Source: Corallium rubrum (taxonomy: Eukaryota; Cnidaria; Anthozoa; Scleralcyonacea; Coralliidae). Taken from it: a DNA stretch of 64,000 bases. Positions within the stretch are counted from its first letter, which is position 1; every line of letters begins with the position of its first letter. The stretch spans positions 20,354,727-20,418,726 of the forward strand of contig OZ035998.1 of assembly GCA_964035015.1 (NCBI GenBank), written 5' to 3'. The notes under the pieces are model-generated. The model was not told where the DNA came from and did no database searches. It saw nothing but the letters and a program-made list of their open reading frames with translations. Below are positions 1 to 61,842 of the stretch, piece after piece. Position numbers and translations under genes: made by a program.

Positions 1-764
1 CCTTCTACTAATTTGTATTAGATGTTTCAGTTAATTTCTATAGTTCTTAAATATATTATGATAATAAGTTGACCTACAGTTTTAATATATGTTTTGTATA
101 GGCTATTTTTAATATTTAAACATACCCTTAAGGCACTAGTAATCCAAGGTTTAGACATATGTTTAACTTTCTTATTATTTATTTATAGATCCTTATTATT
201 TATCTGTTTCAATGGAAGATGTTTATCAATAATTGTATTCAACTTAGTGTAAAAAGCCCCCAAAACAATATTAACATCATTGTTCTCAGGCAATTCCACA
301 TTCCAATCCATTAATTGTAAATCATCAATTAGATCATTTTCATTGTAGTTGGAATAGTCCCGTCTAAAGAATTTGAACTTTTTTGGAAGAGTGGAAAATT
401 TATTAACAATTAGAAAATCAGGAAGATGATCTGTAAGGTCATGAATTATATTTCCACTTATATAGTATGATGGGAATTAAAAAACATATTGTCAGTTAAA
501 GTAGCAGAATGATCAGTTGTACGAGTAGGTTGAAGTATATGAAGGCTAAACAAATATGACCCAAGTGTATTAAGAAAATCATCTGTTGGTTGATGAGAGT
601 CAGAGTTAAGTAAATTTATGTTGAAATCAACCATTATAATACAAAACTTTTGTGTCCGATTAATTTTATCTATTGTTGTATCTAGATAACTCATAAACGT
701 TTCAAGATTACTACCTGGGTGTCTATAAATAACTCCACAAATAAGATCATGTTGCAAATCACTA
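1..764 (-). pseudogene. CR1/L2-like non-LTR element, distal endonuclease and linker
   Basis: This is the downstream part of a non-LTR retrotransposon ORF2, read on the minus strand and running off the window edge. The reading ICGVIYRHPGSN, then FCIIMVDFNINLL, then LQPTRTTDHSATLTDNMF matches the APE-type endonuclease of CR1/L2-like elements, which nicks target DNA to prime reverse transcription. Below 460 the minus strand continues as the usual linker toward the reverse transcriptase (HDLTDHLPDFLIV, SKPWITSALR, NSLYKTYIKT), with interruptions. It is broken at 764/765 by the YR retrotransposon; the missing upstream half resumes at 5539. The reading frame changes across that point and there are stops, so the copy is dead. 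The reverse transcriptase would lie outside the window. Confidence 0.8.
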
Positions 765-870
765 TTACGTTCTAATTCACTGCGTTCAAACGAACGTAAA
801 GCATTTTCCCCTTTTATTACTATGAAAACAGACAAACAGGTTATGGTTGGATTCACTAGCAGATCCCAAC
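765..870 (-). repeat. Split direct repeat A1 (outer)
   Basis: A 106-bp block repeated with near identity at 4660-4765, in the same orientation. It forms the outer, coding-downstream end of the YR retrotransposon. Its plus-strand left edge TTACGTTCTAATTC abuts non-LTR endonuclease sequence, which fixes the boundary of the element. Confidence 0.85.
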
Positions 871-967
871 TATTTTAATAATCGCGAAATACGACGTTCG
901 TTAAATCATCGCACAATGTTATTACGTTGCAAATTGCCTCAAGAAAGTACAAATAATAATTTTACAA
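871..967. other. YR element 3' untranslated segment
   Basis: Short AT-rich stretch between repeat A1 and the stop of the recombinase ORF. No further motif is seen. Confidence 0.5.
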
Positions 968-2014
968 TTATAGCCCCAGATAACTGGAAACTTCTAATCT
1001 GCTGTGCAAACTTTCCTGAACGTACATATCCTTAGCAGTGTCCGTTTTCCATCTTCCGTGTAATTTGAGAAGTCTTTCAGGAATGGAGTTGTTACTGTTT
1101 TGTACCACTGATGTTATACCACCTGACCTTAAACTGTGTAGACCATACTTCGTGGCGTCATAATCGAGAGTCGTTAACGCTTCCTTAAATAACTCTCGGC
1201 TTCGTGAATACGAAAGTGCACCTTTTCCCAACGAATAGAAAGATCCGCGCTTGTGGAACACCAATGGACGGAACAGAAAGGCCGAGCTGTCGAACTCGAT
1301 GTTGGCAAGGCCCATGTACTTCGATAACACGCTTACGGGACAGTATTCGCCGCCGATTTTTTGAATGTAAACAAATTGTCCTTCACGATAAATATCCGTT
1401 TTGCTTTGTGGAACAAGTATTCTAAGATGGTCGTCGTGCCAATCAATGTGATCTGCTTGAATATTGCTCAATTCTTTAAACCTAAAAAATCCTGCAAAAC
1501 CTATTGAACACATAGCTGCAATTCTTAAATCTTTTAGATTATTGTTACTTCTGCCAAATTTGTCTATTAACTTTTTGATAAGGCCTGTAGACACGGGTTT
1601 CTTCTTTCGGATGGGTTTGCTATATGTTCTCTTCGCAGATTCTATTATGTTCTTACAAAAAGGACTGTCCAGTGGATTAGGATTATTATCAGGTGTAAAA
1701 GAATGCAACCACTTTAAAGCGGCGCTGGCTAGCTGAACTGAACTTACGGACTTCGAGTCTTTGGCTTTCGAAAATAGAAACAACGCGATAACTGAAACGG
1801 GAAAGGACAATGTTAGCGGAATTTCCTTTTCCTTGCAGCACTGAAAGAACTTACTAATAACTCGTTCGTATGCTTCTGTCGTTGAGTCGCTACGAGATTT
1901 TAACACGACATCAACAAGACTTTCCAGACGTTGAATGACAACTTTAGGCGCATTTTCCCAAGATTTGCTTGAGCATACAACCTGAAAGAGGGGAAACGTT
2001 AGTGTGTGCAACAA
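968..2014 (-). CDS. Tyrosine recombinase of the YR retrotransposon
   Basis: An open 348-codon frame. The product would be a tyrosine recombinase that joins circular element DNA to the target in the nucleus. The N-terminal half looks like a core-binding domain (about residues 30-130). The C-terminal half has the family's catalytic set: Arg in GFFRFKEL (R178), Lys in SKTD (K205), HSLR (H293 and R296), HGRW (H319) and the nucleophile Tyr in MYVQES (Y331), all in the right order. The length fits DIRS/Ngaro recombinases. The first codons overlap a pyrimidine-rich stretch ending in CAG (minus strand, about 1990-1999) that looks like a 3' splice site, so the true N-terminus may be spliced and the ATG at 2014 is uncertain. 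Catalytic residues appear intact, unlike the damaged gag and RT. Confidence 0.85.
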   Translation of the reverse strand: MLHTLTFPLFQVVCSSKSWENAPKVVIQRLESLVDVVLKSRSDSTTEAYERVISKFFQCCKEKEIPLTLSFPVSVIALFLFSKAKDSKSVSSVQLASAALKWLHSFTPDNNPNPLDSPFCKNIIESAKRTYSKPIRKKKPVSTGLIKKLIDKFGRSNNNLKDLRIAAMCSIGFAGFFRFKELSNIQADHIDWHDDHLRILVPQSKTDIYREGQFVYIQKIGGEYCPVSVLSKYMGLANIEFDSSAFLFRPLVFHKRGSFYSLGKGALSYSRSRELFKEALTTLDYDATKYGLHSLRSGGITSVVQNSNNSIPERLLKLHGRWKTDTAKDMYVQESLHSRLEVSSYLGL

Positions 2015-2324
2015 TACTTCTATTCACGCTCAAAGAGAATTGCAATAATTTAAAGTCTGTACTGTGTAAGCCGTGCAAAAAACAATATTTCATATTCTCT
2101 CAAAACGTTGGAGCAGCCAGCGCCGCTTCTGCACATATAATATAGGCCAGTGCCACATTAAATCCTCTTTTAAAATAGCTGACACTAACAAATTGTGGCC
2201 AGTGCCACTTGTTAGTTCGTTTCATGATAACCCAAAACCATTTCTTACTATTAAAGGCGATTTCAAATGAAATATGCTGCCAGACTGTATAAAACATACG
2301 AACAGAAAGTAGAACACAATTTAA
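2015..2324. other. Spacer or intron between RNase H and recombinase frames
   Basis: About 310 bp without a convincing coding frame. A 12-bp direct repeat (GGCCAGTGCCAC) occurs twice on the plus strand, near 2146 and 2197. The acceptor-like tract ahead of the recombinase suggests an intron end here, but I see no clear donor in the RNase H frame, which ends in a plain stop. Confidence 0.4.
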
Positions 2325-3154
2325 TTATCTCTGGAAGTCCATGCGAAAAGCTATCATTTGTCCCCAGAATCTGTCAGATCCGAATAGTGAATTAACATTG
2401 CGACCCTGCTTTAAAATATCTCGACCCTCAAAAACTTTACGATCTATGACAAACGTTCGAAACTTCGACATGATAACAGGCCAAGAATTAGCCGATGGCC
2501 AAAAGGGTACTACTATGGTCGTTGTTGCTTGCTGATGCCACATGTAATGCAGAACTCTGGAAATAATGGGAACTGGCGGGACAGCCCAACAAATCTCATT
2601 GGCTAAGTTTTGGATGAAAAAATCGACTCCGCTTGTATTGGGATTCCAAAATCTTGAGAAAAATCGTTGTAACTTACAATTGTAGTAATTCGCAAAACAA
2701 TCAACCGTATACGGTCCCCATAGATTATTCAAATAAGCAAAACACGCATTCGTGATTTCCCAATCGTCGATATCGATAAGACGGCTTAGATAGTCAGCTC
2801 TAGTGTTCAAATCTCTCGGGATCCACTGAATATCCAAGTTAATAGCGTTTTGAAGACAAACGCTGAAGATACGAAGAGCAATATCGTGCAGCTCTAAACG
2901 CATACTTCCGACCTCAACTATTTTGCTGCTGCCTGATTGTCAGTAAACCATTTAACGGGGGAACCTTTTATAATATCTTTAAACGATAGAATAGCAAATT
3001 CGATGGCAGCCAATTCTCTCCATGTGGAACTTTTAGCCCTCTCATGAGGTAACCACATTTTGTGACATACAGTAGCCTCATTCATTGTTATCAGCGATCC
3101 GCAGCCGGTATCGCTGGCATCTGAGTACGCAAAACAACTTGGCGTTTTATACAA
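2325..3154 (-). pseudogene. RNase H and downstream domain of the YR retrotransposon
   Basis: Two minus-strand frames (2918-3154, then 2325-2903) together cover the RNase H and the conserved region after it. The first has FAYSDASDTGCG, WRELAAIE and FTDNQAA, the Asp/Glu/Asp signature of RNase H in DIRS/Ngaro elements. The second continues IQWIPRDLNTRADYLSR, then a conserved stretch with VDCFANYYNCKL and RFWNPNTSGVD, and ends at a natural stop. A frame change near 2905-2918 breaks the reading, so this copy is not translatable as one protein. RNase H would degrade the RNA template during reverse transcription. Confidence 0.8.
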
Positions 3155-4443
3155 AAAACAGTTCCTTTCGTTGTAAGACTCTTATATTGTCTCTCCAAAA
3201 ATAAATCTCCCGTCTACAGTAATCATCTAATCGGAATTCTGTGTCCCAAGTAGAGGCAGTAGCTATGGACATGCTACAATGCCTGGTCATTATCCTCGCT
3301 ATGGTACCAATAACTGCCCCAGTGGAAATAATCTGCCCGACAAGAGCTGCCAATTGCCTTGCCGAAATTTTAAATGCAAATGCAATTATTTGCTCTATTG
3401 TGTCGAAAATTTTTTGAATTCGTCTTGGCACAATACTCAAAGTACCTTTTTGAGAGTTCCACGTCAGCCCCAACCAATCTAACGATTGTGTAGGTTCCCA
3501 AATTGATTTTTCATCGTTTGGGATAAAACCGGCGCGTATGAGATCATGTCTCACCGTTTTGGCATTAGAACTGCAAGTTTGCATACTTTTGTCTAAAGAC
3601 CAACCGTCATCCAAAAATATAGCAATGATTATACCGATATATCGCCAGTGCTTTTCTAAAGGTTTCACCACTTTGGTGAAAATATGTGGAGCTGTCGATA
3701 GACCAAATGGAAGGACAGTAAAAACGTAAAAGGAATCGCTTTGTGCATTAGGAGAACGCCAAGAAAAACCTAAATACGTTTGATGCTCGTTGTATATGTC
3801 TATATGATGATATCCGCTTTTCAAATCAAAACTAAACGTATGCATTCTGCTGGTAATACGCCAAGGCTATTTTCCAATCTTCGTATTTGACTTTCATTTT
3901 CAACAAACACTTATTCACGTGCCTTAGGTCTAGGATTAATCTCTTTTTACCGCTCGCTTGGACAGCGACTGATAAAGGATTAACAACTTGAGGAGCAGTA
4001 TGAATCTGGATAACCCTGCCAGAGTTAACAAGCTCTAAAATAGCTTCGTTGACGAAAACCACATGCTTTTCAGCTGATTTATTATTCTTCAAATGCACTG
4101 GTTCCGGTAATTTTTCGAAAGGCAATTTGTAGCCATGCTCTATAACGTCAAGGATAAATCTTGATGTACCAATTGTTCTCCAAAACGATACATTTCTTTT
4201 GAGATTTCCTTTCACGTTTTGAGTATAGCCTATTTCAAACTCAAAATTTTTAGAGGATAATTCAGGTACCTGTAACAATTCATCGCGGCTTGAAATTGGG
4301 TCCTGATTTACCGTAAGTATATCCACTTTGGCCTCCGTATTGGAATGGTCTGTCATTCCACGGTAATTTACACTGCCTTGCCCAGTGGCCGCAATTGTTG
4401 CATTTGAAACATCTGCCGTAGTCCTCATTAGTGCTTCTACTGC
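3147..4443 (-). pseudogene. Reverse transcriptase with upstream gag zinc knuckle, frameshifted
   Basis: Second exon of the element's main reading region. After a predicted acceptor (AG at 4445-4444) the frame opens with a CCHC zinc knuckle, CFKCNNCGHWARQC (C-x2-C-x4-H-x4-C), typical of a gag nucleic-acid-binding tail. It continues into an RT N-terminal region with KRLILDLRHVN (ORF 3832-4428). A one-base frame change near 3840 leads into 3147-3845, which holds FSFDLKSGYHHIDI (first catalytic Asp), FTVLPFGLSTAP and IAIFLDDGW (the catalytic pair, the DIRS/Ngaro form of YxDD). All core RT motifs are present, but the frameshift inactivates it. Confidence 0.85.
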
Positions 4444-4504
4444 CTGCGAAAAGAAGATTGCTCTGCAGTTACAAATTAAACTGTGAAAGGGAGGGTGGGA
4501 GGGA

Positions 4505-4660
4505 ATGTGTAGTTGTAGGATCAGCGAGTGAGAGTGATAATAGTGCGGCAGAAGGGCGTATTTATACGATACAAGACAATGAAATTACTGAAGCCTTGCA
4601 AGGTATTGTGCTAAGCACAATCAATCTGCTAATCATATTCATACCAGCGGAAAATTCATT
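4505..4660 (-). repeat. Split direct repeat B1 (internal)
   Basis: A 156-bp block repeated at 5383-5538 with no visible difference and the same orientation. It directly adjoins A2, forming the B1-A2 junction expected to match the circle junction of a YR retrotransposon. Confidence 0.85.
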
Positions 4661-4765
4661 TACGTTCTAATTCACTGCGTTCAAACGAACGTAAAGCATT
4701 TTCCCCTTTTATTACTATGAAAACAGACAAACAGGTTATGGTTGGATTCACTAGCAGATCCCAAC
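4660..4765 (-). repeat. Split direct repeat A2 (internal)
   Basis: A 106-bp direct copy of 765-870, joined to B1 inside the predicted gag intron. Confidence 0.85.
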
Positions 4766-4821
4766 CATATGAGAAATAACAAAGTACAAAAGAACCAAAT
4801 GGTCATTTAACTACATCCTAC

Positions 4822-5373
4822 CACGAAAAAGCTGATTATCAGAACCAATAGCAGCAATTTTAGGTCTTTTGTCGCTGGATTTCGACTGCAGCTCTTTCTG
4901 TCTCCGTTTTCGGCTGACGGATTCCTTTGCTTTCTTGAGACGTTTCTCGTCTTCCGATCCGGAAGCCAAGTCATTGGACTCATATTCCTCGACAACTTGC
5001 CAGCCATCTTTGTTCCGATCAGCTATTTTGATCAGCTTTTGCCTCTTTCAAATAAGCTCTTTGCCTTGTTCTACCAGCTGCTGCACTGGACGGCCGTGTT
5101 CCGGCTTTTGATTTTCTGTATGAATGCTGTCGAAAATCGAATCAATCTGCGCGTTTAACTCGAATTGCTTCTGATTTCCCTTGTATTTAAGCTGAACGAT
5201 CTCTTTTTCTTGCTTTTGATCTCAAATTCCTTGCCTTTCTGATCAAATCGCTCTTCTAAGTAGGATTTGAACATCGAAAAGACTTGTTGTACACTGTCAT
5301 CTTTTGAATTTTCTTCAGCAAACTTTGAGGATTCTCCGGCTTCGTTATCAACTGGTGATTCGCGGTCAGACAT
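4822..5373 (-). pseudogene. Gag exon 1 of the YR retrotransposon
   Basis: Starts at ATG 5373 (MSDRESPVDNEAGESSKF), ten bases inside repeat B2. An acidic N-terminus is followed by a likely coiled-coil region. The frame then shifts near 5215 and meets one in-frame stop near 5046. It continues as KLIKIADRNKDGWQVVEEYE and an acidic-then-basic tract ending at IGSDNQLFRG, just before the predicted intron donor at 4821. The DGWQVVEEYE region followed by charged residues is typical of gag-like ORF1 proteins of DIRS/Ngaro elements. The predicted role is packaging of element RNA. This copy is inactive because of the frameshift and the stop. Confidence 0.7.
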
Positions 5374-5382
5374 AGCAGAATT

Positions 5383-5538
5383 ATGTGTAGTTGTAGGATC
5401 AGCGAGTGAGAGTGATAATAGTGCGGCAGAAGGGCGTATTTATACGATACAAGACAATGAAATTACTGAAGCCTTGCAAGGTATTGTGCTAAGCACAATC
5501 AATCTGCTAATCATATTCATACCAGCGGAAAATTCATT
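5383..5538 (-). repeat. Split direct repeat B2 (outer)
   Basis: 156-bp outer repeat, identical as read to 4505-4660. Its plus-strand right edge, GAAAATTCATT, abuts the resumed non-LTR endonuclease sequence at 5539, defining the second boundary of the YR element. Confidence 0.85.
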
Positions 5539-6740
5539 GAATCTCACTCAATTCACAGTGCTTCATAATCAACGGTTGATACTGACAGATCATCTCTCAT
5601 ATTAATAAAACTCAATTGATTATTAACAAAGAACCCAGGTCCACCAGCAGGTTACTTAAGCTGGGTTGTGAAAAAATGTATAGCCAGAATATTAATATTA
5701 GTCAACGGATGTTTATTGTTTTATAATAATCTTTGTTTCAGTTAAGCCAATAACAGAAAAGTTGTGCTTTAAGTCGGATAATAATTGCATTAGGTCATCA
5801 AAATTTACACTAAGACTTCGAATGTTCGGGAATGCAGAACTGAGAAATGCTGTCTAGAAGTACAATTTCTTATCTCATCACTGTCTTGAAATTCAATAAT
5901 GTAATATTTGAAATTTGTTTGTGTAGGAATGTTTATATCAGGATCAAAATTGGAGAGATTTGAATTAGGGATTATTGAGAAAGGGATTTCAAACCTTGGT
6001 AAGTTTACAAAATTAGATTGAGACAGGCATAGCAATAATAAAATAAATACAATAATCTTAGAAGCTTATCTGTCAGATCAAGAGTTGGCATTTTTGTACA
6101 TCCTCTCTATGTCACGACCATTTTTTTACACACGGCAGGGCTATCAGAATCTCGATGAAGAAGGATTTTAACGGAAAACGTCCAAATAAATTTGAAGTTC
6201 AGTGCTCTTTTAACCCGAAGACATTGGTTGAATAGGGATTTATTCTGCTGAGTCAAACTTTCAGAAAATTACTGAAATTTTTTCGTTCATCGAGTCTTGT
6301 AAAACCAAGGTCTCATGTGGATTTATTGCGCATGCCTCGCCTTGCTTTATAGTAGGAATCTCGCGCATTTCTACGAACAAACTTGACAATAATCGGTGGC
6401 TCTCGTTGGACATGTTGTTGATTACTTGCAGAAGACCTCCTAGGACTAGGGAGTCTGTGGCTTACTGAAATGCCACCTTCATTCACCTCAAACCCTATCA
6501 ATTTACCAACATCTCTAACGATAACATTTGTATCTTCTTTGCTCTGATCTTGTGTATAGGAATACCTCGGATTTCCAGACTCGGGTCTCCCTCCTCCATT
6601 TCGTTCATGCCATTCTTCAACAGGCTCAACTTGTTCGATATATTGTTCAAATCAGATTTAAACACTTATTATCTTTAACCAGAATACAATTCTCTGTTTC
6701 AAGAACATCAATTCTAGCCATATAGTGAGGATGTTGCAGT
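5539..6740 (-). pseudogene. CR1/L2-like non-LTR element, ORF1 and endonuclease start
   Basis: Upstream half of the element broken by the YR insertion. From high to low coordinate, the minus strand first gives an ORF1 region with EIRGIPIHK, then GKLIGFEVNEGGISVSHRLPS and PPIIVKFVRRNARD (6313-6501), an RNA-binding (RRM-like) ORF1 signature. It then gives the start of the APE endonuclease: RSLSVNFDDLMQLLSDL, FSVIGLTETK, and near 5560 TVDYEAL followed by a stop where Trp is normally found. That stretch leads into the YR boundary, and the continuation is at 764. Several stops and frame changes show the copy was decayed. ORF1 would coat element RNA and the endonuclease nick the target. Confidence 0.75.
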
Positions 6741-6744
6741 CATC

Positions 6745-6985
6745 AATAGCCCCAATTGTGTGTTTCATGCTACCAACACAAAACTTGGCAATCTTATAGA
6801 GTTTGAGGTGCTTAAAAATATAGGGTCAGGACCCCAACGCCAAAGTACCTCTAAACGTTATTTTTAGACATCCCAACTAGGTCCCAAACCCCCCGGAGAG
6901 TTTTGTGCAATTTAACCTTATAACGAGATTAAATTAAGTCATATTCAGTTGAAAATGGATACAACTAAACACTTCCATCTTAAGA
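6745..6985 (+). repeat. Dispersed repeat R, left part
   Basis: Matches the reverse complement of about 19105-19345 at high identity (shared words include AATTTAACCTTATAACGAGAT and AAACACTTC). It leads directly into the pentanucleotide array. The repeat family is not recognised; it may be a non-autonomous element or the untranslated region of one. Confidence 0.75.
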
Positions 6986-6998
6986 ACGATACATTACT

Positions 6999-8083
6999 TG
7001 CTATACTATACTATACTATACTATACTATACTATACTATACTATACTATACTATACTATACTATACTATACTATACTATACTATACTATACTATACTATA
7101 CTATACTATACTATACTATACTATACTATACTATACTATACTATACTATACTATACTATACTATACTATACTATACTATACTATACTATACTATACTATA
7201 CTATACTATACTATACTATACTATACTATACTATACTATACTATACTATACTATACATATACTATACATATACTATACATATACTATACATATACTATAC
7301 ATATACTATACATATACTATACATATACTATACATATACTATACATATACTATACATACTATACCATACCATACCATACCGTCCATACCAAATCATACCA
7401 TACCATACCATACCATACCATACCATACCATACCATACCATACCATACCATACCATACCATACCATACCATACCATACCATACCATACCATACCATACCA
7501 TACCATACCATACCATACCATACCATACCATACCATACCATACCATACCATACCATACCATACCATACCATACCATACCATACCATACCATACCATACCA
7601 TACCATACCATACCATACCATACCATACCATACCATACCATACCATACCATACCATACCATACCATACCATACCATACCATACCATACCATACCATACCA
7701 TACCATACCATACCATACCATACCATACCATACCATACCATACCATACCATACCATACCATACCATACCATACCATACCATACCATACCATACCATACCA
7801 TACCATACCATACCATACCATACCATACCATACCATACCATACCATACCATACCATACCATACCATACCATACCATACCATACCATACCATACCATACCA
7901 TACCATACCATACCATACCATACCATACCATACCATACCATACCATACCATACCATACCATACTATACTATACTATACTATACTATACTATACTATACTA
8001 TACTATACTATACTATACTATACTATACTATACTATACTATACTATACTATACTATACTATACTATACTATACTATACTATAC
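6999..8083 (+). repeat. Mosaic pentanucleotide array (CTATA/CCATA), 1.1 kb
   Basis: Pure (CTATA)n to about 7254, then an 11-bp unit (CATATACTATA) to about 7350, a short irregular stretch (7353-7393), (CCATA)n from about 7394 to 7962, then (CTATA)n again to 8083. The unit order is roughly symmetrical. Long open frames on both strands are artefacts of the repeat and are not called as genes. The related copy at 19.1 kb has only about two CTATA-like units here. Confidence 0.97.
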
Positions 8084-8169
8084 ATAACCAAACTTTTACA
8101 ATGATTTAAGGGTGTTACTTGGCCCAGTCCTCCAATATACACTCTTACTCGAAAATGCACCTCAGCTTT
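8084..8169 (+). repeat. Dispersed repeat R, right part
   Basis: Continues the match to the second copy (reverse complement of about 19026-19105): AATGATTTAAGGG, then CCAATATACACTCTTACTCG, ending at CACCTCAGCTT. Similarity stops near 8169, where the CR1-type element begins. Confidence 0.75.
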
Positions 8170-10575
8170 TGGTAAACAAGGAAAAAATCATTGATTGTCT
8201 TGATCTTAATATGCCTTTATCGTATAACTTTTTATTTGACCTAAATACCCAAAGTGTGCAATCCATGTAACACAATAATTAGTCGTGGTCGTGTTTCCCT
8301 CCGTATAATTAATAAACATAGTAAAGCAACGAACGTCATCAGTAAGCGTGATTCAAGAGCTAGTTGCAAAAGAGCAATGGGGAGATTTTTAAGTTCGATG
8401 GACTGGCCTCTGCTACTTAATTCTTTGGAAAGCTGCGAAGATTCTTCGAAAGTCTTCCAGGATGTGATCCATATTGGGCTTGATTTTCTTATGCCTGTGA
8501 GAAAAATCCGTGTGATTCCAGCCGACCCCATTTGGATGTCTCAGAAGTTAAAGTCATTAATCCTAAAAAGACAAGAGGCCTTTTCAAAAAATGGAGCTGA
8601 CTCTGTTCTTTTTAGGTTCTATAGGAACGCAGTCAATCGCGAAAGGAAAACCTGCAAAGCTAATTACTATAAACTGAGAGTACAACAAATGAAAGGCGAA
8701 AATCCTAAGGCTTGGTGGAGAGAGGTCAAGCGTATTAGTGGAATGCAGTCTCGCTCTGGTAACTTACTTGGTCAGATAAATGTTGAAGAGATCAAGGATT
8801 TGCCTGACCAAGAAATAGCGAATGTAATCAATAAGGCGTTCTTGGGTCCTCTAGAAGAATATCGATTGCCTTCCTCAATAACTCCCCTACAATTGGAAGA
8901 GGACAACCCAGAGTTACTAGAGGTATCTGAAGAGAGAGTCCTTAAGTTGTTGTCGAAACTCAACCCCGCAAAGGCTTCCGGACCGGATGAGATACCAAAT
9001 TGGTTGCTGAGGGAGTATGCTGAGTGGCTCGCTTACCCCGTGAAAACTATTCTGAACGCGTCATTCAGCGAACAACGCCTGCCCAGTATATGGAAATGTG
9101 CTGATGTAACTCCACTGCCAAAAAAAAAACCCGTGCAGTGTCTGAAGAAAGATCTGAGGCCTATTTCATTAACGCCGTGCATCTCAAAAGTCGCTGAGGA
9201 CATTGTTGTTTGTGACTATGTTAAGCCTGCCGCTATGAAAATCATCGACCCCAACCAATACGGAACGGTTCCCAAGTCATCTACCACGCTTGCCCTGCTG
9301 AGTATGATCCACGAATGGACCAAGGGAACTGACGGAAACGGTTCTACGGTAAGAGCTCTCTTTTTCGACTATCGTAAAGCTTTTGACCTGATAGACCATA
9401 ACATTCTTGTTCATAAATTACGCACGTTAGATGTACCAATCAGCATTACCAACTGGATAATTGACTTTCTCAGCAATCGGCTCCAAAGAATCAAACTTGC
9501 AGAGGGTTGTCTGTCCGAATGGGGCTCAGTTCCATCAGGAGTTCCACAGGGAACTAAACTAGGGCCCTGGTTATTTATCATAATGATAAATGACCTAGTA
9601 ATTAGAGACGCCCGCGTGTGGAAGTATGTGGATGATACGACGATATCAGAAGTCGTCCGGAAAAACGATGTCAGCAGTGCCCAACTTTTCACCGACAACG
9701 TGGTTCAATGGTCTCTTGATAACAGAGTTCAACTAAACACCAACAAATGTAAGGAGCTACGAATCTCTTTTGCTAGAAACCAGCAGGAATTAGAGCCGAT
9801 TAAGGTTATGGATAAGGATTTGGAGATTGTAGACAGTGTTAAGCTTTTAGGGTTAACGATTACAAGTAATCTATCGTGGAATTTACATGTAAATGAGGTT
9901 ATTAAAAAAGCCTCTAAAAGGTTATATTTTTTAGTGCAGCTGAAAAGAGCTAACGTCCCTCGAAAAGACCTAGGGCTATTTTACATTACTTGCATTAGAT
10001 CTCTTTTAGATTATGCTGTCCCTGTGTTCCATTTTTCTATCCCACAATATCTAATGTGTGAATTAGAACGTATACAAAAGGGGGCATTGTCGATCATTTG
10101 CTATAATCACGATTATACCGAAACACTAAAATGTATGAACATCGTCCCTCTAGCTGACCATCACAAGGATATATGTAATACATTGTTTACTACCATTGTT
10201 AATGATAAGAACCATCGACTCCATCAATTATTACCGCCGTCTTATGAGACTAAGCACAACTTGAGACATTCGCGATCATTTAATGTTCCCAGATGGAAGA
10301 CTAACCGTTTTAAGAACACTTACATAATGTCTTCATGCCTTAATGCTAACATGAAATAGTCAATGTCCAGTTTTAAGAATTAGTTTTAGTTTAGGCTTGA
10401 CATTTTGTTATAGCTATTTTATGTAAGCTCATGTAAATTTATTTTACATATAAATTTGTAATTTTAATATAAGAATATCTATTATAACAAATGTAATTTT
10501 AATGAAATACGCAATTCAGCCCTTGGCTGCTATGTATTTTTTTCAAATAAACCATCTATCCATCTATCTATCTAA
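8170..10575 (+). mobile_element. CR1/Rex1-type non-LTR retrotransposon, 5' truncated
   Basis: Contains the endonuclease-RT linker and the full reverse transcriptase but no ORF1 or endonuclease start, the usual result of incomplete reverse transcription. The 3' end is AATAAACCATCTATCC followed by a short CTAT repeat (about 10553-10575), a simple-repeat tail typical of CR1/L2-type elements. The exact 5' junction is uncertain; 8170 is where similarity to the flanking dispersed repeat ends. Confidence 0.8.
8254..10359 (+). CDS. Non-LTR reverse transcriptase (CR1/Rex1-like), 701 codons
   Basis: One open frame without internal stops. The first 200 residues are the linker between endonuclease and RT (WMSQKLKSLILKRQ, FYRNAVNRERKTCK, NPKAWWREVKR). 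The RT follows with ordered motifs: KASGPDEIPNWLL, LRPISLTPCISK, FFDYRKAFDLIDH (catalytic Asp), PSGVPQGTKLGPWLF and KYVDDTTISE (the catalytic pair in the YxDD box). After that come the thumb and the C-terminal region of the family. The ATG at 8254 is only the first Met of a truncated frame and not a natural start. It copies element RNA at a nicked target. Intact coding suggests a recent insertion, but the copy lacks the endonuclease and cannot act on its own. Confidence 0.9.
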   Translation: MCNPCNTIISRGRVSLRIINKHSKATNVISKRDSRASCKRAMGRFLSSMDWPLLLNSLESCEDSSKVFQDVIHIGLDFLMPVRKIRVIPADPIWMSQKLKSLILKRQEAFSKNGADSVLFRFYRNAVNRERKTCKANYYKLRVQQMKGENPKAWWREVKRISGMQSRSGNLLGQINVEEIKDLPDQEIANVINKAFLGPLEEYRLPSSITPLQLEEDNPELLEVSEERVLKLLSKLNPAKASGPDEIPNWLLREYAEWLAYPVKTILNASFSEQRLPSIWKCADVTPLPKKKPVQCLKKDLRPISLTPCISKVAEDIVVCDYVKPAAMKIIDPNQYGTVPKSSTTLALLSMIHEWTKGTDGNGSTVRALFFDYRKAFDLIDHNILVHKLRTLDVPISITNWIIDFLSNRLQRIKLAEGCLSEWGSVPSGVPQGTKLGPWLFIIMINDLVIRDARVWKYVDDTTISEVVRKNDVSSAQLFTDNVVQWSLDNRVQLNTNKCKELRISFARNQQELEPIKVMDKDLEIVDSVKLLGLTITSNLSWNLHVNEVIKKASKRLYFLVQLKRANVPRKDLGLFYITCIRSLLDYAVPVFHFSIPQYLMCELERIQKGALSIICYNHDYTETLKCMNIVPLADHHKDICNTLFTTIVNDKNHRLHQLLPPSYETKHNLRHSRSFNVPRWKTNRFKNTYIMSSCLNANMK

Positions 10576-13270: not shown

Positions 13271-16200
13271 TCAATTGTCCTCTTCGGCTAATAGTGTTAT
13301 CTTTGCTTTGGCATTCTTAGCAGCTTCTCTTACACTTCGAACTCTTGGAATGTTTCCATTCAAAACGACTTCGTTACCGTTTACTTCATGTGCTGCTGCT
13401 TTGATCTCTAACGGGCAAATAAGTTGGAGTGGACGCTCGATATTGTTTCCCTTGTGTAAGATAATAACTCCTCGAACGATCCCATCCTTTCCCTTGACGT
13501 GCTTTATCACCTTCCCTTTCATTGCGTACTTGAGTGGCCCGGCGAAATCTATCCCGGTATGTTGAAATGGTCGGCTAACTTCTGTACGGAACTTTGGTAA
13601 CGAAGCTGTCGTGGTTGCTCCATACGGCTTGGCTGAATACACTTTGCAAATGTTGCAGTTTCGTATTTGCTTCTTAACACGGGCTCTAAGGTGTGGTATC
13701 CACCAGTCATCTCTCAGGCTTGCCATCGTATGCGCTACTCCTAAATGGTTGTTTTGTTCGTGGACATGTCGGATTAGTTTTTCGGCTAGAAGATTATCTT
13801 CTAAGTACGTAGGCGTGTAATTTTGGATTCTTCCATGGCATTTCAGGATTCCTGTATCTTCGCCTTTCACCAACTTGAAGCTGGGGGTTTCTAGGTTTTC
13901 TGGAATTCCTCCTTGGCACTTTTTCACCCAGTGGTTTCTCGCTGCGATTATTTCTTCGCTTGTTAGGGGCCCAGATCTTTTCTTGATCTTTCGTAGTTTG
14001 GCGAGGCTGTTGTGCATAAATCGTAAAGCCCAGGCTGTAATTCTTAGAGTGTTCCAATATGGCTTTCGTTCTAACAGGTCGTTCCATTCATCTGTAATAG
14101 CTCTGGCGGCATAGGAAGCTTCTTTTACTGGCTTTTGTTCTTCAATTGCTTTAGGCGTCTGCTTCAATTCTGGTTGTTCAGGCCAATCTTCTTTCTTCAA
14201 AATCCAGTCTGGACCAGTAAACCATCCCTTGTTTTCCATTCTATCGATTGAAGCTCCCCTACTTGCGAGATCCGCAAGATTCTTCTCTGTCGGGCAGTAT
14301 TTCCAGTTGACTTCGATATCCTTGGTAGTTTCAGCGATTTTCCTCACCCGGTTGGCAACAAATACTTTCCACGGACGTTCTGGTTTTGTAATCCAGTACA
14401 ACGCAACCATACTGTCCATCCATATTGTCACCGAGGATATTGGCCACTGCTTCAGTGCTTGACAGACATTTTTCACCATGTTGGCTGCCATATGGCCGCT
14501 GATTAACTCCAAACGAGCGATAGAGGTGTTGCGCTTGGATATTCTCGACTTGGACGTTAAGATTCCCTTGACTGTTCCTGTTTCGGACTCTACTGCTGCA
14601 ATGGTTACTGTGGAACAGGCTAGGTTGCTTGCATCAGCAAATTGGTGGATATGGATTCCCCTCGTTCTTCTACACTCCTTTGTAATACTTCTCGGAACTC
14701 GTACGTTTCTCAGTTGTCCTGTCCATCTGAACCATTTTGACTTCAAGGCAGGCGAGACTTCTTCATCCCATCCTTTTCTTTCCTCACACACTTCTCGGTA
14801 AAGATGTTTCCCCTCTGCCAAGGTTGGTGATAGAAGACCCAACGGATCGTAAATGCTCCCCAATTGGCTCAGCACTGTCTTCTTGGTCACTGGTCTGTTT
14901 GGAGGAAACACAGGAACTTCAAGTTCTAATGTGTCTTGTTTCTTGTCCCAGCGGTGTCCCAGTATCTTTCCTGGATTTGGCATGTCACACCCATCTAGTG
15001 CTCCGACGTTTGATTCCCATTTGTGAATAGGGAATTTGGCATCTTCCATGATCTTTGTTGCTTCCACTTTGAACTTGTCCAATCCCTCGATGTCACTGCT
15101 GGTTTTCATTAGGTTGTCGACATAGGTGTTCTCTCTCAGGGCTTGAACGGTTTCCTCAAACTCTGGTGGTTGTTGATTGTAGTGGTACTGTAGTGTCGCA
15201 CCAAGGATAAAGGGGCTCGCTTCAGCACCAAAGGGAACTCTTGCAAATCGAAAATGTTCTTGTATGCCATTGAAATTGAACAGAAACCGAAAAGCATCTC
15301 GATCTTCTTCTTTTATACCGATTTGATGGAATGCTTTCTTAATATCTGCGAGCAAGAGGTTTGTTGACATCCTGGCTCTGATCATGATGTCCCACAGGTG
15401 CGGCTGAAGAGGAGGTCCAGTATGCATACACTCGTTAATGCTGCTTGCTAGGGGGTGAGGCTTCGCACTAGCATCAAACACCATTCGAACCTTTGTAGTT
15501 GCTGCATCTCTCCTGACCACAGGTTTGTGTGGCATGTAAAAGACTCGTTGTCCAGTCTGTGTTGGTGGCACTCTCTCGATGATATTGGACTCCAACTGTT
15601 CACCAATAATTGCTTGGTACTCTGTGCACAGCTCTTTGTCTTGGTTCAACTTCCTTTCAACATTGACCAATCTCTTCTTGCTTTGAACGAGATTTGTTTC
15701 ACTCAGGTGACTTCCGGCTATCCATGGGATGTTTACCTCGTATCTACCGTCCTCACTTCTCACAATGTTCTCATTGAACTCTGAGTAGACTTCTTGCTGA
15801 TCATTTTCCTTTCGGTCTTCAATTCCAAGAACATCAAGAGTGTACAGCCTCTCGTAATCTGAATCTTCCTTGGTAAACAGGCATTTGTTAGATGGGTAGT
15901 CTCCTCCATGTATGACCCAACCAAATGTGGTCCCTTCGACAATTGGTTCTCCTTCCTTTCCCTTGAATACTTCCTCAGTCTTCATCTTGCAATACAGGTT
16001 GTCTCCGATTATCAGGTCGATTGGATACTCATTATCCTTCTTCATGTAGAACTGTTTGTTCTTGGCATGTTCGTATTTCTTAATCAACTTGTTCATGTCT
16101 GGTCTCCTCACGGTTGTAAAGTTGGGCATCGTTGATCCTGTAACTTCGCATGTCTCCACTTGCTTTCCATCCACCGATTCTATTCCAACAGAGTATATTG

Positions 16201-17682
16201 GCAATGACTGCTTCTTCATCCCATTTACTGTAACGATTTGTCTGACCTCATGACGAATTGGAGACAGCTTCATGTTTTTGATAGCTTTGCTTGATATAAA
16301 ATTTCTCCCTGAGCCAGTGTCGAGGTAGGCCCAGAGTGTTTCTCCTTTTATTCTCACAGGAATGATGGCTGGCAATGATTCTTCGGCATCAGAAGGGGTA
16401 TACCCAGTAAGAACAGCATTCCCATCTAGCACCTTCTCACAGAGACTAGTATGGTGTCTCCCTTTACATTTCAGGCAATTTCTACTTCTACAGTCATTCC
16501 CTCGATGACCAGCAACACCACAGTTGAAGCAAAGCTTATTTGCAACGAAAAAGGCTTTGCGTTTCTCCCTTGTATCTTGGATTTTACAGGAATCAGGCCA
16601 ATGATTTCCCTCACAGAATATGCATTTCTTCTCTTTTGGTTTTCCATTTCCCTTCTGAGTATACCACTGTCTCTCCTTCTTGGTACTGTCATTCTTAGAT
16701 GAATCTTCTACCTTGTTTCTTCTTAACCACTGCTGAAGACTCTCGAGGAACTCTTTCATACTCCATTTCTCCCAACTGTCGTCAGTTCGTACAAGATCTG
16801 ATCTAATGTGTGGTAACTTGTTGAGTGTTGACATCACAAATCCTTTTAACATGTCTGCTTCTTCTAATGTTTCCAATGCATCATAATTTCGACTTACTTT
16901 CTCGTAGAATTCCTTCACTTGCTCGTAGTTTGATCCCTTCACAACTTGTAAGCTAATAATAGCCTCCATATGAGCACTCACAACCAAGGTAGTATGTCCA
17001 TAGTCTTTCTTTAGTCTGTCCCATGCAGTGTTGTACCCGTGTGTACTTGGTTTTAGATTGCTAATCTTTTCTCTTACCTTCGTGTTGACCATCTCTAGTA
17101 GGTACCCGTATTTCTCCTCGTCACTTATTGGTTTGCTATGTACTTGAGTTGCAAACATGTTCTCGAATCTTATCCAATCTGTTGGCGTACCATTAAATGG
17201 CGAAATTTTCAATTTTGGCAATTTCGCTTGAGTCGACTTCGCTTGTGCTTCCAATTCAAGTTTCTGCTCGGTTGCCTTGATCTCAGCTCGTAATCTCTCC
17301 TGCCAAATTTGTCGCTCTTGTGCTAACTTCTCTTGTCTTAATCTCTCCTCTCGTTCTTCTTGTCTGGCACGAATCTCCTCTTGTTGTTGTTCTGCTCTAT
17401 GTTGTTGTCGCGTTTCCGCTTCGATAATTTGTTGTTCTTCTTCTCGTTTGATCTCCTGTTCTCGCTCTTGCAAGGCCTTTGTTATCTTTTCTTTCTCTTC
17501 GATCAACGGTGCGTAACTCAACTTTATTTCCTTCTTCCATTGTCTAACACTTCTTGGTGAAATATCAAGCTCGATTTTCATTTCTTGAGTACGCGATATT
17601 AACTCCGACAATCTCTCGTTGATTTTGGTTGTCCTTTGCTCCACAATATTCATCTCTTCGTAGTCATTTGATGCTAGTAACT
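13271..17682 (-). CDS. BEL gag-pol polyprotein with integrase core deleted
   Basis: An open frame of about 1480 codons reading into the inserted DNA transposon at its 5' end; the BEL-derived part begins near 17682. Coiled-coil charged region (about residues 25-165), DUF1759-like gag (about 170-330), zinc knuckles with [14 protein letters not shown] (about 397) and a second Cys motif, aspartic protease DTGS (about 466), reverse transcriptase with [12 protein letters not shown] and YVDN in the catalytic box (about 866, the BEL form), RNase H with FADAS (about 1025), integrase zinc domain H-H-C-C (about 1315-1355). Then [10 protein letters not shown] (first catalytic Asp, about 1392) runs after a few residues into the C-terminal chromatin-side region ([12 protein letters not shown]). 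The second Asp and the Glu are absent, so an in-frame deletion of most of the catalytic core is inferred. The C-terminus ends naturally at 13271. Confidence 0.9.
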
Positions 17683-18310
17683 CCACAGGGAGCCCATCTT
17701 GGCAGCACTTGGGCACCTGTGGCGGACTCGAAAGACGCGCGGGGGACTGTGGCAGGGGATTTAAAAAAATACGGAAAACGGTTACCGGAAGCGAGGGAAA
17801 AACGGGGGAAAGGGGGGGAGGGAGAGAAAAAAATATAAGGGATGAAACACCAAACGTTCAACGTGGAATGTGTTCCGCAAGTAGCCAGGACATCTCGTAT
17901 CGTCGGGAGCCACCGTTGGAATACTGAAACCTACTGAAACTCAGAGTCAGATGAATGTGCAATAAATCAATAATCCTGAGACTTCCCGCTTTATCCGAAA
18001 AGCTTATCGTAGGATTTCGTAGCTATCCGAAGTGTCAACGATGACGTAGTGTCCTAGCTACTTGCGGAACACATCTCTCGAAAATACGATATGTAATTTA
18101 GCTGCAAAATCACGGCTAAAAGGTGAGATTTTGCCTCATTTTGATTATATTTTGATAAATGAATCATTATCACAACTACTTCGCTCAGTTGTAAAACGAT
18201 GTTCAAAACAAGGAAGAATTCGTGTTTCATCCCTTTATTATTTTCCTAAACACACCACGATCGAGTGTGCCACAGGGTACCCACGCTCTGCCAAGATGGG
18301 CTCCCTGTGG
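17683..18310. mobile_element. 628-bp TIR DNA transposon (MITE) inside BEL gag
   Basis: Ends are inverted: CCACAGGGAGCCCATCTTGG at the left, and the complement at the right ending CCCTGTGG at 18310. Flanking bases TAACT occur at 17678-17682 and 18311-18315, a 5-bp duplication. Removing the element and one copy of the duplication restores a continuous gag frame. Inner inverted pairs are also present (AAGGGATGAAACAC near 17836 with its complement near 18221; GTGTTCCGCAAGTAGC near 17869 with its complement near 18055). No transposase is encoded. The superfamily is not assigned. Confidence 0.85.
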
Positions 18311-60290: not shown

Positions 60291-61100
60291 CTAAAATAAG
60301 TTCATAAAACGTAGATACAACTTTCAAATTCGTATTTGTGTTTGCGTTTGAGTTTGTGTTTGTTTTTGTGTCTTTGCATTGCTTCTCACACAATCATTTT
60401 CATGCCTTGCTTCTTTTTAATTAATTCTATGTCTTTTTCTGTGTTTCATAAACAAATTTATACTCAAAAGTTTTAACAGCGGTAGTCATGGGTACCTATT
60501 TTTTCAAATAACCCAGAGTGAAAGAACTAAAATTTAATATTAATATTAGTAGCCAATCAGGAATAAGGAAAACTTATTGAAATATTATTAATCAGTGAAC
60601 AAAACTGCATATACAGTTAATGTGGCTTTCAGATAAAAGCTTGATGAAGACGTCTTTGCATTTATATGTTTCGTCTGTCATAAACTATCTAATTAGATTT
60701 CAAATATTATTTAATTGTTAATGATAATAATTCATGAAAAAATTCCAAAAGAAATTAATGTTTAGTCAGTGCAATTAAATGTGTAGTGCGCCTGTGCCCG
60801 AGCACACAGGCAGGTAAATGTCATACAAACGACTAGTGCTTAGCTTGTGTCATTTGATACAAAATACTAATAAACCTATTAGTATTCTGTATCATTTGAT
60901 ACAGCATAGTAATAGAGTGAGAGACCTCTTACCTCAACTCTCAAACAGTGAAATTGATTTTTTTTTAACTAAATCCAAACATATATTACTTAAATTAACA
61001 CCACAGACTCAGAGTGTTTTGTATATATCCGATGCAACTCGGCCATTCATATTGTAAATAGTACATATTGGTACGATGTTGTACGATATATAGATACAGT
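60291..61100. other. Unassigned AT-rich region
   Basis: No supported gene. A short plus-strand frame at 60818-61057 has no motif. Confidence 0.4.
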
Positions 61101-61106
61101 TTTGTT

Positions 61107-61142
61107 ACCTCCGCCAGGAGGTTATGTTTTTACCCCTTTCTT

Positions 61143-61184
<42 letters not shown>

Positions 61185-61229
61185 CGTCCGTCCGTCCGTC
61201 CGTCCGTCCGTCCGTCCGTCCGTCCGTCC

Positions 61230-61284
<55 letters not shown>

Positions 61285-61433
61285 CGTTTCTTGGTTTGTT
61301 TGTCTGTCTGTCTGTCTGTCTGTCCGTCCGTCCGTCCGTCCGTCCGTCCGTCCGTCCGTCCGTCCGTCCGTCCGTCCGTCCGTCCGTCCGTCCGTCCGTC
61401 CGTCCGTCCGTCCGTCCGTCCGTCCGTCCGTCC

Positions 61434-61471
<38 letters not shown>

Positions 61472-61472
61472 T

Positions 61473-61504
<32 letters not shown>

Positions 61505-61842
61505 GCCAGGATATCTCAAAAAAGTATTGCAGCCATTTTCATGAAAGTTTGTAGAAGGGTTGGTCATAGACCAACGACCAATCCATTAAATTTTGGTTGA
61601 GTTTAGTCAAAATTTGGATTAGCAATTAATAAAAATCTGACCGCAAGATTCTCCATGCTGAAGAACTGCTTGATTACACTCATTATCCTTATTTTATACA
61701 AACATGTTTGCATAATTTTGGTACGAGTGCAATCAAGCATTTTATTTATACATGCATGCGTTGGTCTCGTGAGCTAGCCTGGTTAGCGGGATGGCTCGTT
61801 TTCTTTTTAAACATCTCTATAATAACCCGCTGGCGGAGGTAC
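61107..61842. mobile_element. TIR element expanded by TCTG/TCCG arrays
   Basis: Starts TACCTCCGCCAG and ends with the complement CTGGCGGAGGTA. Inside the left end, 61139-61503 is (TCTG)n and (TCCG)n alternating in blocks, with a short non-repeat break near 61285-61300. After it comes GCCAGGATATCTCAAAAAAG and ordinary sequence. A fragment of the same family is near 26392. No transposase seen. Tetranucleotide-derived open frames are artefacts. Confidence 0.75.

Follow-up and report, generated by a model that had tools for sequence, protein, structure and literature searches.

Organization of the element and its integration site

The window, that is, the whole stretch of 64,000 nucleotides that was analysed, carries a tyrosine recombinase (YR) retrotransposon with split direct repeats, which occupies positions 5538-765 of the minus strand (4774 bases). 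Read 5' to 3' on that strand, its parts follow in the order A1, gag exon 1 (module X), B1, A2, gag exon 2 with reverse transcriptase (RT), RNase H (RH), methyltransferase-like (MT) and YR regions (module Y), and B2; all coordinates below refer to the minus strand. In the repeat search, the left terminal repeat A1 (156 bp, 5383..5538) recurs internally as A2 (4505..4660), and the right terminal repeat B2 (106 bp, 765..870) recurs as B1 (4660..4765), with both B copies carrying AATAAA. The two A copies are identical in 156/156 bases (5383-5538 vs 4505-4660) and the two B copies in 106/106 (4660-4765 vs 765-870), which lies far beyond chance. B1 and A2 meet at 4660, a base common to both, to form the junction GAACGTAA|ATGAATT. 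No inverted repeat pair of at least 20 bases exists in window 1-9000 (seed 12). These exact matches bear out the split direct repeats with an internal B1-A2 junction that the first-pass annotation had proposed; repeats and a predicted gag intron are present in its interval, 4444..5538, but the element extends further, to 765.

Gag exon 1, the coding part of module X (4822..5373), begins with an ATG at 5373, nine bases past A1, and is broken in the window copy by one frameshift and one stop. Gag exon 2, up to its stop (4280..4443), contains a CX2CX4HX4C zinc knuckle; the pol ORF already begins within it, in a different frame. The RT (3150..3866) is matched by RVT_1 with E=3.3e-15 in the window copy, where pol lies in several frames, and with 3.6e-16 in the pol of the full copy L010. 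Within this focal family, RNase H, MT and YR are matched in Pfam below the curated cut-offs: the RNase H (2921..3181) is a weak RT_RNaseH_2 match (E=5.5e-5, 23.6 bits, cut-off 29.8), and the Dam-like MT (2328..2939) is weaker (E=0.0024, 18 bits, cut-off 28.1). A Dam match is not listed for the L010 pol, and a homologous stretch occurs between RH and YR in relatives. The YR ORF of 351 aa (971..2023) is open in the window copy and is assigned by homology. Its Phage_integrase match in L030 (E=5.2e-4) is below the cut-off, and that of the homologue L053 (8.5e-10) is above it; a search of solved structures with the YR returned only two weak, irrelevant matches. At the start of the YR ORF (window 1981-2000), an acceptor-like TTTCCCCTCTTTCAG|GTTG is found and no ATG precedes the middle of the ORF in the window copy; pol and YR may thus be separated by another intron.

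The element interrupts a LINE. The left flank (5539..5638) and the right flank (665..764), identified by similarity search, are the two halves of one stretch and match as a continuous sequence in other LINE copies, and an endonuclease-RT match, below cut-off, lies in 461-874. A search with the exact pattern of the empty site gave 0 matches, and a similarity search was used instead. In 5/5 LINE copies compared (five of nine non-self matches), the empty site reads ATTC-A-TAGTG, and the filled site reads ATTC-A-ATGAATT..GAACGTA-A-TAGTG; compared with the empty copies, the left flank in the window has three extra bases slightly upstream. Recombination between a circle junction GTA-A-ATG and the target TTC-A-TAG would explain this site, with no loss and with duplication limited to the shared base. 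As judged from these flanks, this one insertion is conservative and YR-type, without target-site duplication.

Elsewhere in the window, about 1.1 kb at 7000-8085 consists mostly of pentanucleotide repeats (CTATA/CATAC) between LINE-like stretches. A 1528-aa open frame with zinc knuckles at 13271-17857 (minus strand) belongs to what we take, by eye, to be a BEL/Pao-type element.

Copies, families and short forms in the genome

Queries of 601 bases across the junction and of the YR, RT and gag proteins were run against the genome (474 Mb, 312 contigs); the copy counts come from the best-scoring candidates only and are lower bounds. Family 1, with pieces 96-100% identical, includes at least eight full copies A-X-BA-Y-B (the window copy, L009, L010, L011, L012+L013, L014, L015+L016 and L017), spread over six contigs (four large, two small), at least two copies A-X-B (L018, L019), at least four A-Y-B copies (L020-L023), besides the 3' fragment L024. 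The 40-base flanks all differ among the 14 family-1 insertions, which are therefore independent. All 14 begin with ATGAATTTTCC, and the right end GAACGTAA is present in 23/23 family-1 B copies, including the internal ones and L024; the base preceding the left-end ATG is A in 8/14 insertions and another base in 6/14. The family is young, as indicated by the few differences between A1 and A2 within the eight full copies (5 in 1246 aligned positions) and between B1 and B2 (4 differing positions in the seven full copies measured). Gag exon 1 is open in four of the eight full copies (L009, L010, L014, L017), and at least one of 11 copies checked has open frames for gag exon 1, for pol and for YR. 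The tree of X has no starred branch and gives no resolution, and no relative was confirmed in viral contigs.

The intronic junction is present in three families, with one copy each in the second (L027) and the third (L059). In family 2, whose pieces are 89-97% alike and whose gag is 69-73% identical to that of family 1, L025 and L026 are A-X-B only, and L027, which contains inserts, is A-X-BA-Y. The decayed L059 retains X, the donor and B|A2, followed by pol, and L061, of a fourth family, is A-X-B only. L027 repeats the first gag codons downstream of A2, within the intron (L027:3504-3545, 5579-5620), possibly a trace of a tandem dimer. Long repeats encoding SVCL/PSVR and FVRS/ERTN strings in several frames occur both at L025:4773-5364 and in window 61000-61600.

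The same genome contains PAT-like relatives, more distant than these families, whose RH, MT and YR matches are ordered alike but in which B lies after the YR. This holds in 6/6 copies compared (L045-L048, L050, L056); all or part of A2 adjoins B in four of them (L047, L050, L045, L056), and a complete B1-A2-B2 follows the YR in two (L047, L050). In these two, a 107-base repeat flanks a 169-base stretch directly after the YR, and this stretch matches what precedes gag in L060. In L046 and L048, where B is not followed by any A2 that could be found, A2-B2 looks as if it had been lost. Direct repeat pairs after the YR, without resolution into A and B, are also found in L049, L051, L052 and L053-L055. 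L060 is the 5' part of the L046 element, and its Gag runs in one frame through CFSCGQRGHW into RT; the unbroken Gag of these relatives is seen in this one copy, which may carry a deletion, and A2 was not found in L046. The unrooted YR tree separates family 1, L041 and L043 from 11 other rows (96/97), with L041, L043 and L057 on long branches. Family 1 and L047 have the junction motif TAA-A-TG in common. No RT or gag match was found upstream of the RH of L043, and further gag/RT matches in the genome lie at C37:503702, C120:59459 and C1:69533439.

The A-X-B and A-Y-B insertions, which make up 6/14 of the family-1 insertions, have the same exact ends as the full elements; each half can thus stand alone. 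The explanation slightly favoured is deletion after insertion, in the manner of solo LTRs, through ordinary recombination of A1 with A2 or of B1 with B2, with no part played by the recombinase or by separate mobility, since such recombination yields exactly the ends seen; copies with no A2 found after B also occur among the relatives with the junction after the YR (L046, L048). Against it, though not decisively, six of 14 insertions are short despite repeats of only 156 and 106 bp and the youth of the copies, and L020 and L022 share four sites found in none of the eight full copies (support 97/92). These shared sites suggest that A-Y-B may arise frequently or be mobile in its own right; the other two A-Y-B copies, L021 and L023, fall in another clade. 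Alternatively, the short forms could result when the recombinase resolves a circle that has two B|A sites. None of the eight full copies has the permuted order A-Y-BA-X-B, which would be expected in half of them with two equal B|A junctions (p about 0.004), so that a free two-junction circle is unlikely.

The predicted gag intron and a proposed model of replication

The predicted gag intron (4444..4821, 378 bases, GT..CAG, phase 1) is defined by splice signals and frame. Its donor follows exonic GTG (GTG | GTAGGATG, first intron base 4821), and its acceptor is CTTCTTTTCGCAG | GCAG, with the last intron base at 4444. The predicted splice joins gag in frame and reaches the CCHC knuckle (..DNQLFRG|SRSTNEDYGRCFKCNNCGHWARQC), and the whole of B1-A2 is located inside the donor-acceptor interval. 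The first-pass annotation had placed B1-A2 between exactly this donor and this acceptor, with gag joined in frame to the knuckle, and this observation is confirmed.

The donor GT is kept in 15/15 X copies examined. All ten family-1 X copies have GTAGGATG; the family-2 donors, GTAAGT (L025), GTAAGT (L026) and GTAAGC (L027), are nearer the consensus than the family-1 GTAGGA. The donors of L059 (GTAGGA) and L061 (GTAAGA) were found by a pattern that itself contains GTA (at most 2 mismatches), and alignment of the proteins arrives at the same position. A donor search that tolerated up to 6 mismatches also gave one match in the window by chance, not at a GT. The residues encoded past the donor vary between copies (RM*, KLSRYS*, RTLILL.., KNVLNN..). 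Meanwhile, the acceptor is kept in 12/12 family-1 Y copies and in L027, with a deletion lying nearby, upstream, in L017. The zinc knuckle is in the spliced frame in the same 12/12 copies and L027, and none was found in the decayed L059. In the two copies tested, L010 and L027, the knuckle frame has a stop upstream and no in-frame ATG. Conservation of the splice sites in other copies, proposed earlier as a check on the intron, is thus observed for donor and acceptor in the families examined.

Between L010 and L026, the mismatches in exon 1 at codon positions 1, 2 and 3 amount to 49/179, 34/177 and 99/177, and this third-position excess between families indicates that gag exon 1 evolves as coding DNA. 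In the same pair, the B stretch is identical at 93/106 bases, and 31 of the 56 bases from the donor to B are identical (5 of the first 8, 26/48 thereafter). The codon-position signal of exon 2, where two frames overlap, is weak (18/45, 14/46, 24/46). By simple scoring, the L010 donor is moderate, matching the consensus at 3/6 positions, with one of 42 GTs scoring higher and six others tied; the L010 acceptor ranks in the top four of 25 AGs, outscored by one that lies 39 bases upstream of it. A gag copy with the exons joined gave 0 matches in the genome with up to 2 mismatches allowed, which is what would be expected if completion were confined to unspliced RNA.

A contains TATAAATA followed, 31-33 bases on, by TCTCACTCGC, a promoter-like arrangement. 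In family 1, TATAAA is present in 21/22 and TCTCACTCGC in 20/22 A copies, and AATAAA is present in 23/23 B copies. L026 and L027 retain TATAAA and TCTCACTCGC with a spacing of 31 bases, and L061 has neither; AATAAA is present in the B of L025 and L027 and absent in L026, L059 and L061. Neither these signals nor the free-standing A-X-B and A-Y-B insertions had been anticipated in the first-pass annotation. If these motifs are read as promoter and poly(A) signal, the RNA would lack most of A1 and the end of B2, and B1-A2 contains the parts of A1 and B2 that such RNA would miss. We consider it probable, at about 0.78, that this is a PAT-like element in which the additional B|A junction, probably the template from which the ends missing in the RNA are rebuilt, resides in a gag intron instead of downstream. 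The reading draws on the repeats, their order, the conserved splice signals and frames, the one conservative integration and the recurrence across copies and families; from these we infer splicing in vivo, the transcript ends, circle formation and the role of the unspliced RNA.

In the cycle considered most likely, transcription would start near the 3' end of A1 and end past the AATAAA of B2, and the full-length unspliced RNA would retain B1-A2. Reverse transcription on B1-A2 would then rebuild both the first part of A and the last part of B and yield a closed circle. The YR would recombine the B|A junction of this circle with a target base, without duplication beyond that base. The spliced RNA, devoid of B1-A2, would not be completable and would serve as mRNA for a Gag with the zinc knuckle. 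The earlier proposal that unspliced RNA acts as genome and spliced RNA as message fits this scheme, in which only unspliced RNA keeps B1-A2. In the published DIRS-1 model, as described in PMC5633606 and PMC3266345, an internal copy restores the missing ends and a circle forms; the present scheme would apply that model, by analogy, to split direct repeats, and circles are also assumed for split-repeat elements in the account of PMC1965478.

Alternative readings and relation to known elements

Alternatively, B1-A2 might be mainly a gene boundary between two transcription units, A1-X-B1 for gag and A2-Y-B2 for pol and YR, with splicing as a minor or regulated read-through. TATAAA and TCTCACTCGC in nearly all family-1 A copies, AATAAA in every family-1 B copy, the separate A-X-B and A-Y-B insertions and, in L010, a first ATG past the end of A2 that is in the pol frame would all suit such units. 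The signals are not general, however: the B of L026, L059 and L061 has no AATAAA, L061 lacks both A motifs, and in L027 other ATGs come before pol, whose own ATG is not conserved. As a main account, two units are rather unlikely, and they do not exclude the intronic-junction explanation. The same absence of AATAAA from B in 3/5 copies outside family 1 also lowers the odds of a segmented retrotransposon, in which A-X-B and A-Y-B would be separately insertable, each with its own promoter, poly(A) signal and recombination ends; the full element would be a co-integrate whose halves are rejoined in RNA by splicing, and the recombinase would split and fuse the modules. Under this modular organization, which we regard as doubtful, the repeated gag codons of L027 may be a trace of a tandem-dimer origin with complementary losses.

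Splicing could also be absent altogether, in which case X would be a short but complete gag ORF (ending RGRM*) that is expressed on its own, and the knuckle ORF would be a leftover or be reached by frameshifting or internal initiation. X does have its own stop just beyond the donor, the AATAAA of B1 (family 1, L025, L027) could end the transcript ahead of the acceptor, and free-standing A-X-B insertions are found. Nevertheless, it is the donor that is kept in 15/15 X copies examined and not the unspliced tail, the knuckle is intact in 12/12 family-1 copies and L027 with no upstream in-frame ATG in the two tested, and one relative (L060) has Gag and knuckle in a single ORF, all of which makes this explanation improbable. 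Finally, although the window copy is decayed and its surroundings are rich in repeats, there is next to no likelihood that the B1-A2 order, including the upstream placement of gag exon 1 that had been named as a point to check, arose because a single copy was rearranged late, took up a nested insertion or was misassembled, as the same order recurs in eight independent insertions with different flanks and in one copy in each of two diverged families (2 and 3).

With PAT-like elements (Pat1), the element has in common the split direct repeats A1-B1A2-B2, a zinc-knuckle gag, RT, RH and YR, the MT match being weak here, as well as integration without target-site duplication in the one insertion compared with empty sites. 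In nematode-form Pat1 and in Kangaroo, the internal repeats are described as lying between MT and YR (PMC4157794), whereas B1-A2 is here upstream of RT, in the predicted gag intron; the same source gives the echinoderm form of Pat1, SpPat1 of a sea urchin, another placement of the internal repeats. In Ngaro and VIPER, which also have split direct repeats and a YR, the description places the internal repeats downstream of the YR, without an MT (PMC4157794), unlike the arrangement here. The first-pass annotation had set the element against a junction near the 3' end in both PAT and Ngaro elements; with the nematode PAT and Kangaroo repeats between MT and YR, this contrast was overstated. An SGNH hydrolase is described in amphibian Ngaro (PMC9210276); none is among the Pfam matches here. 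DIRS1-like elements resemble the present one in the RT-RH-MT-YR order, the proposed circle and the lack of target duplication, but are described with inverted terminal repeats and an internal complementary region (PMC3266345), unlike the direct repeats here.

Further arrangements appear in the accounts available: internal repeats beside the 3' terminal repeat in a Daphnia element (among PMC4157794, PMC6681497 and PMC8547959), Bodo saltans copies with other repeat orders (PMC6681497), and other split-repeat configurations that are said to exist (PMC8969392). No report of an intronic split-repeat junction was found in a literature search of partial texts. Provisionally, judged against the placements described for nematode-form Pat1, Kangaroo, Ngaro and VIPER, the intronic B1-A2 would be a new variant among PAT-like elements rather than a new kind; a figure in the older literature may depict this position of the repeats with no mention of an intron.

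In retroelements, one RNA has to serve as both genome and message. Here, the part that the genome alone requires lies at a position from which splicing would strip it out of the message, so that two RNA fates would be built into the element and the spliced RNA could not be completed. Together with relatives of the usual arrangement in the same genome, the element offers a natural system for how split direct repeats restore ends and make circles.
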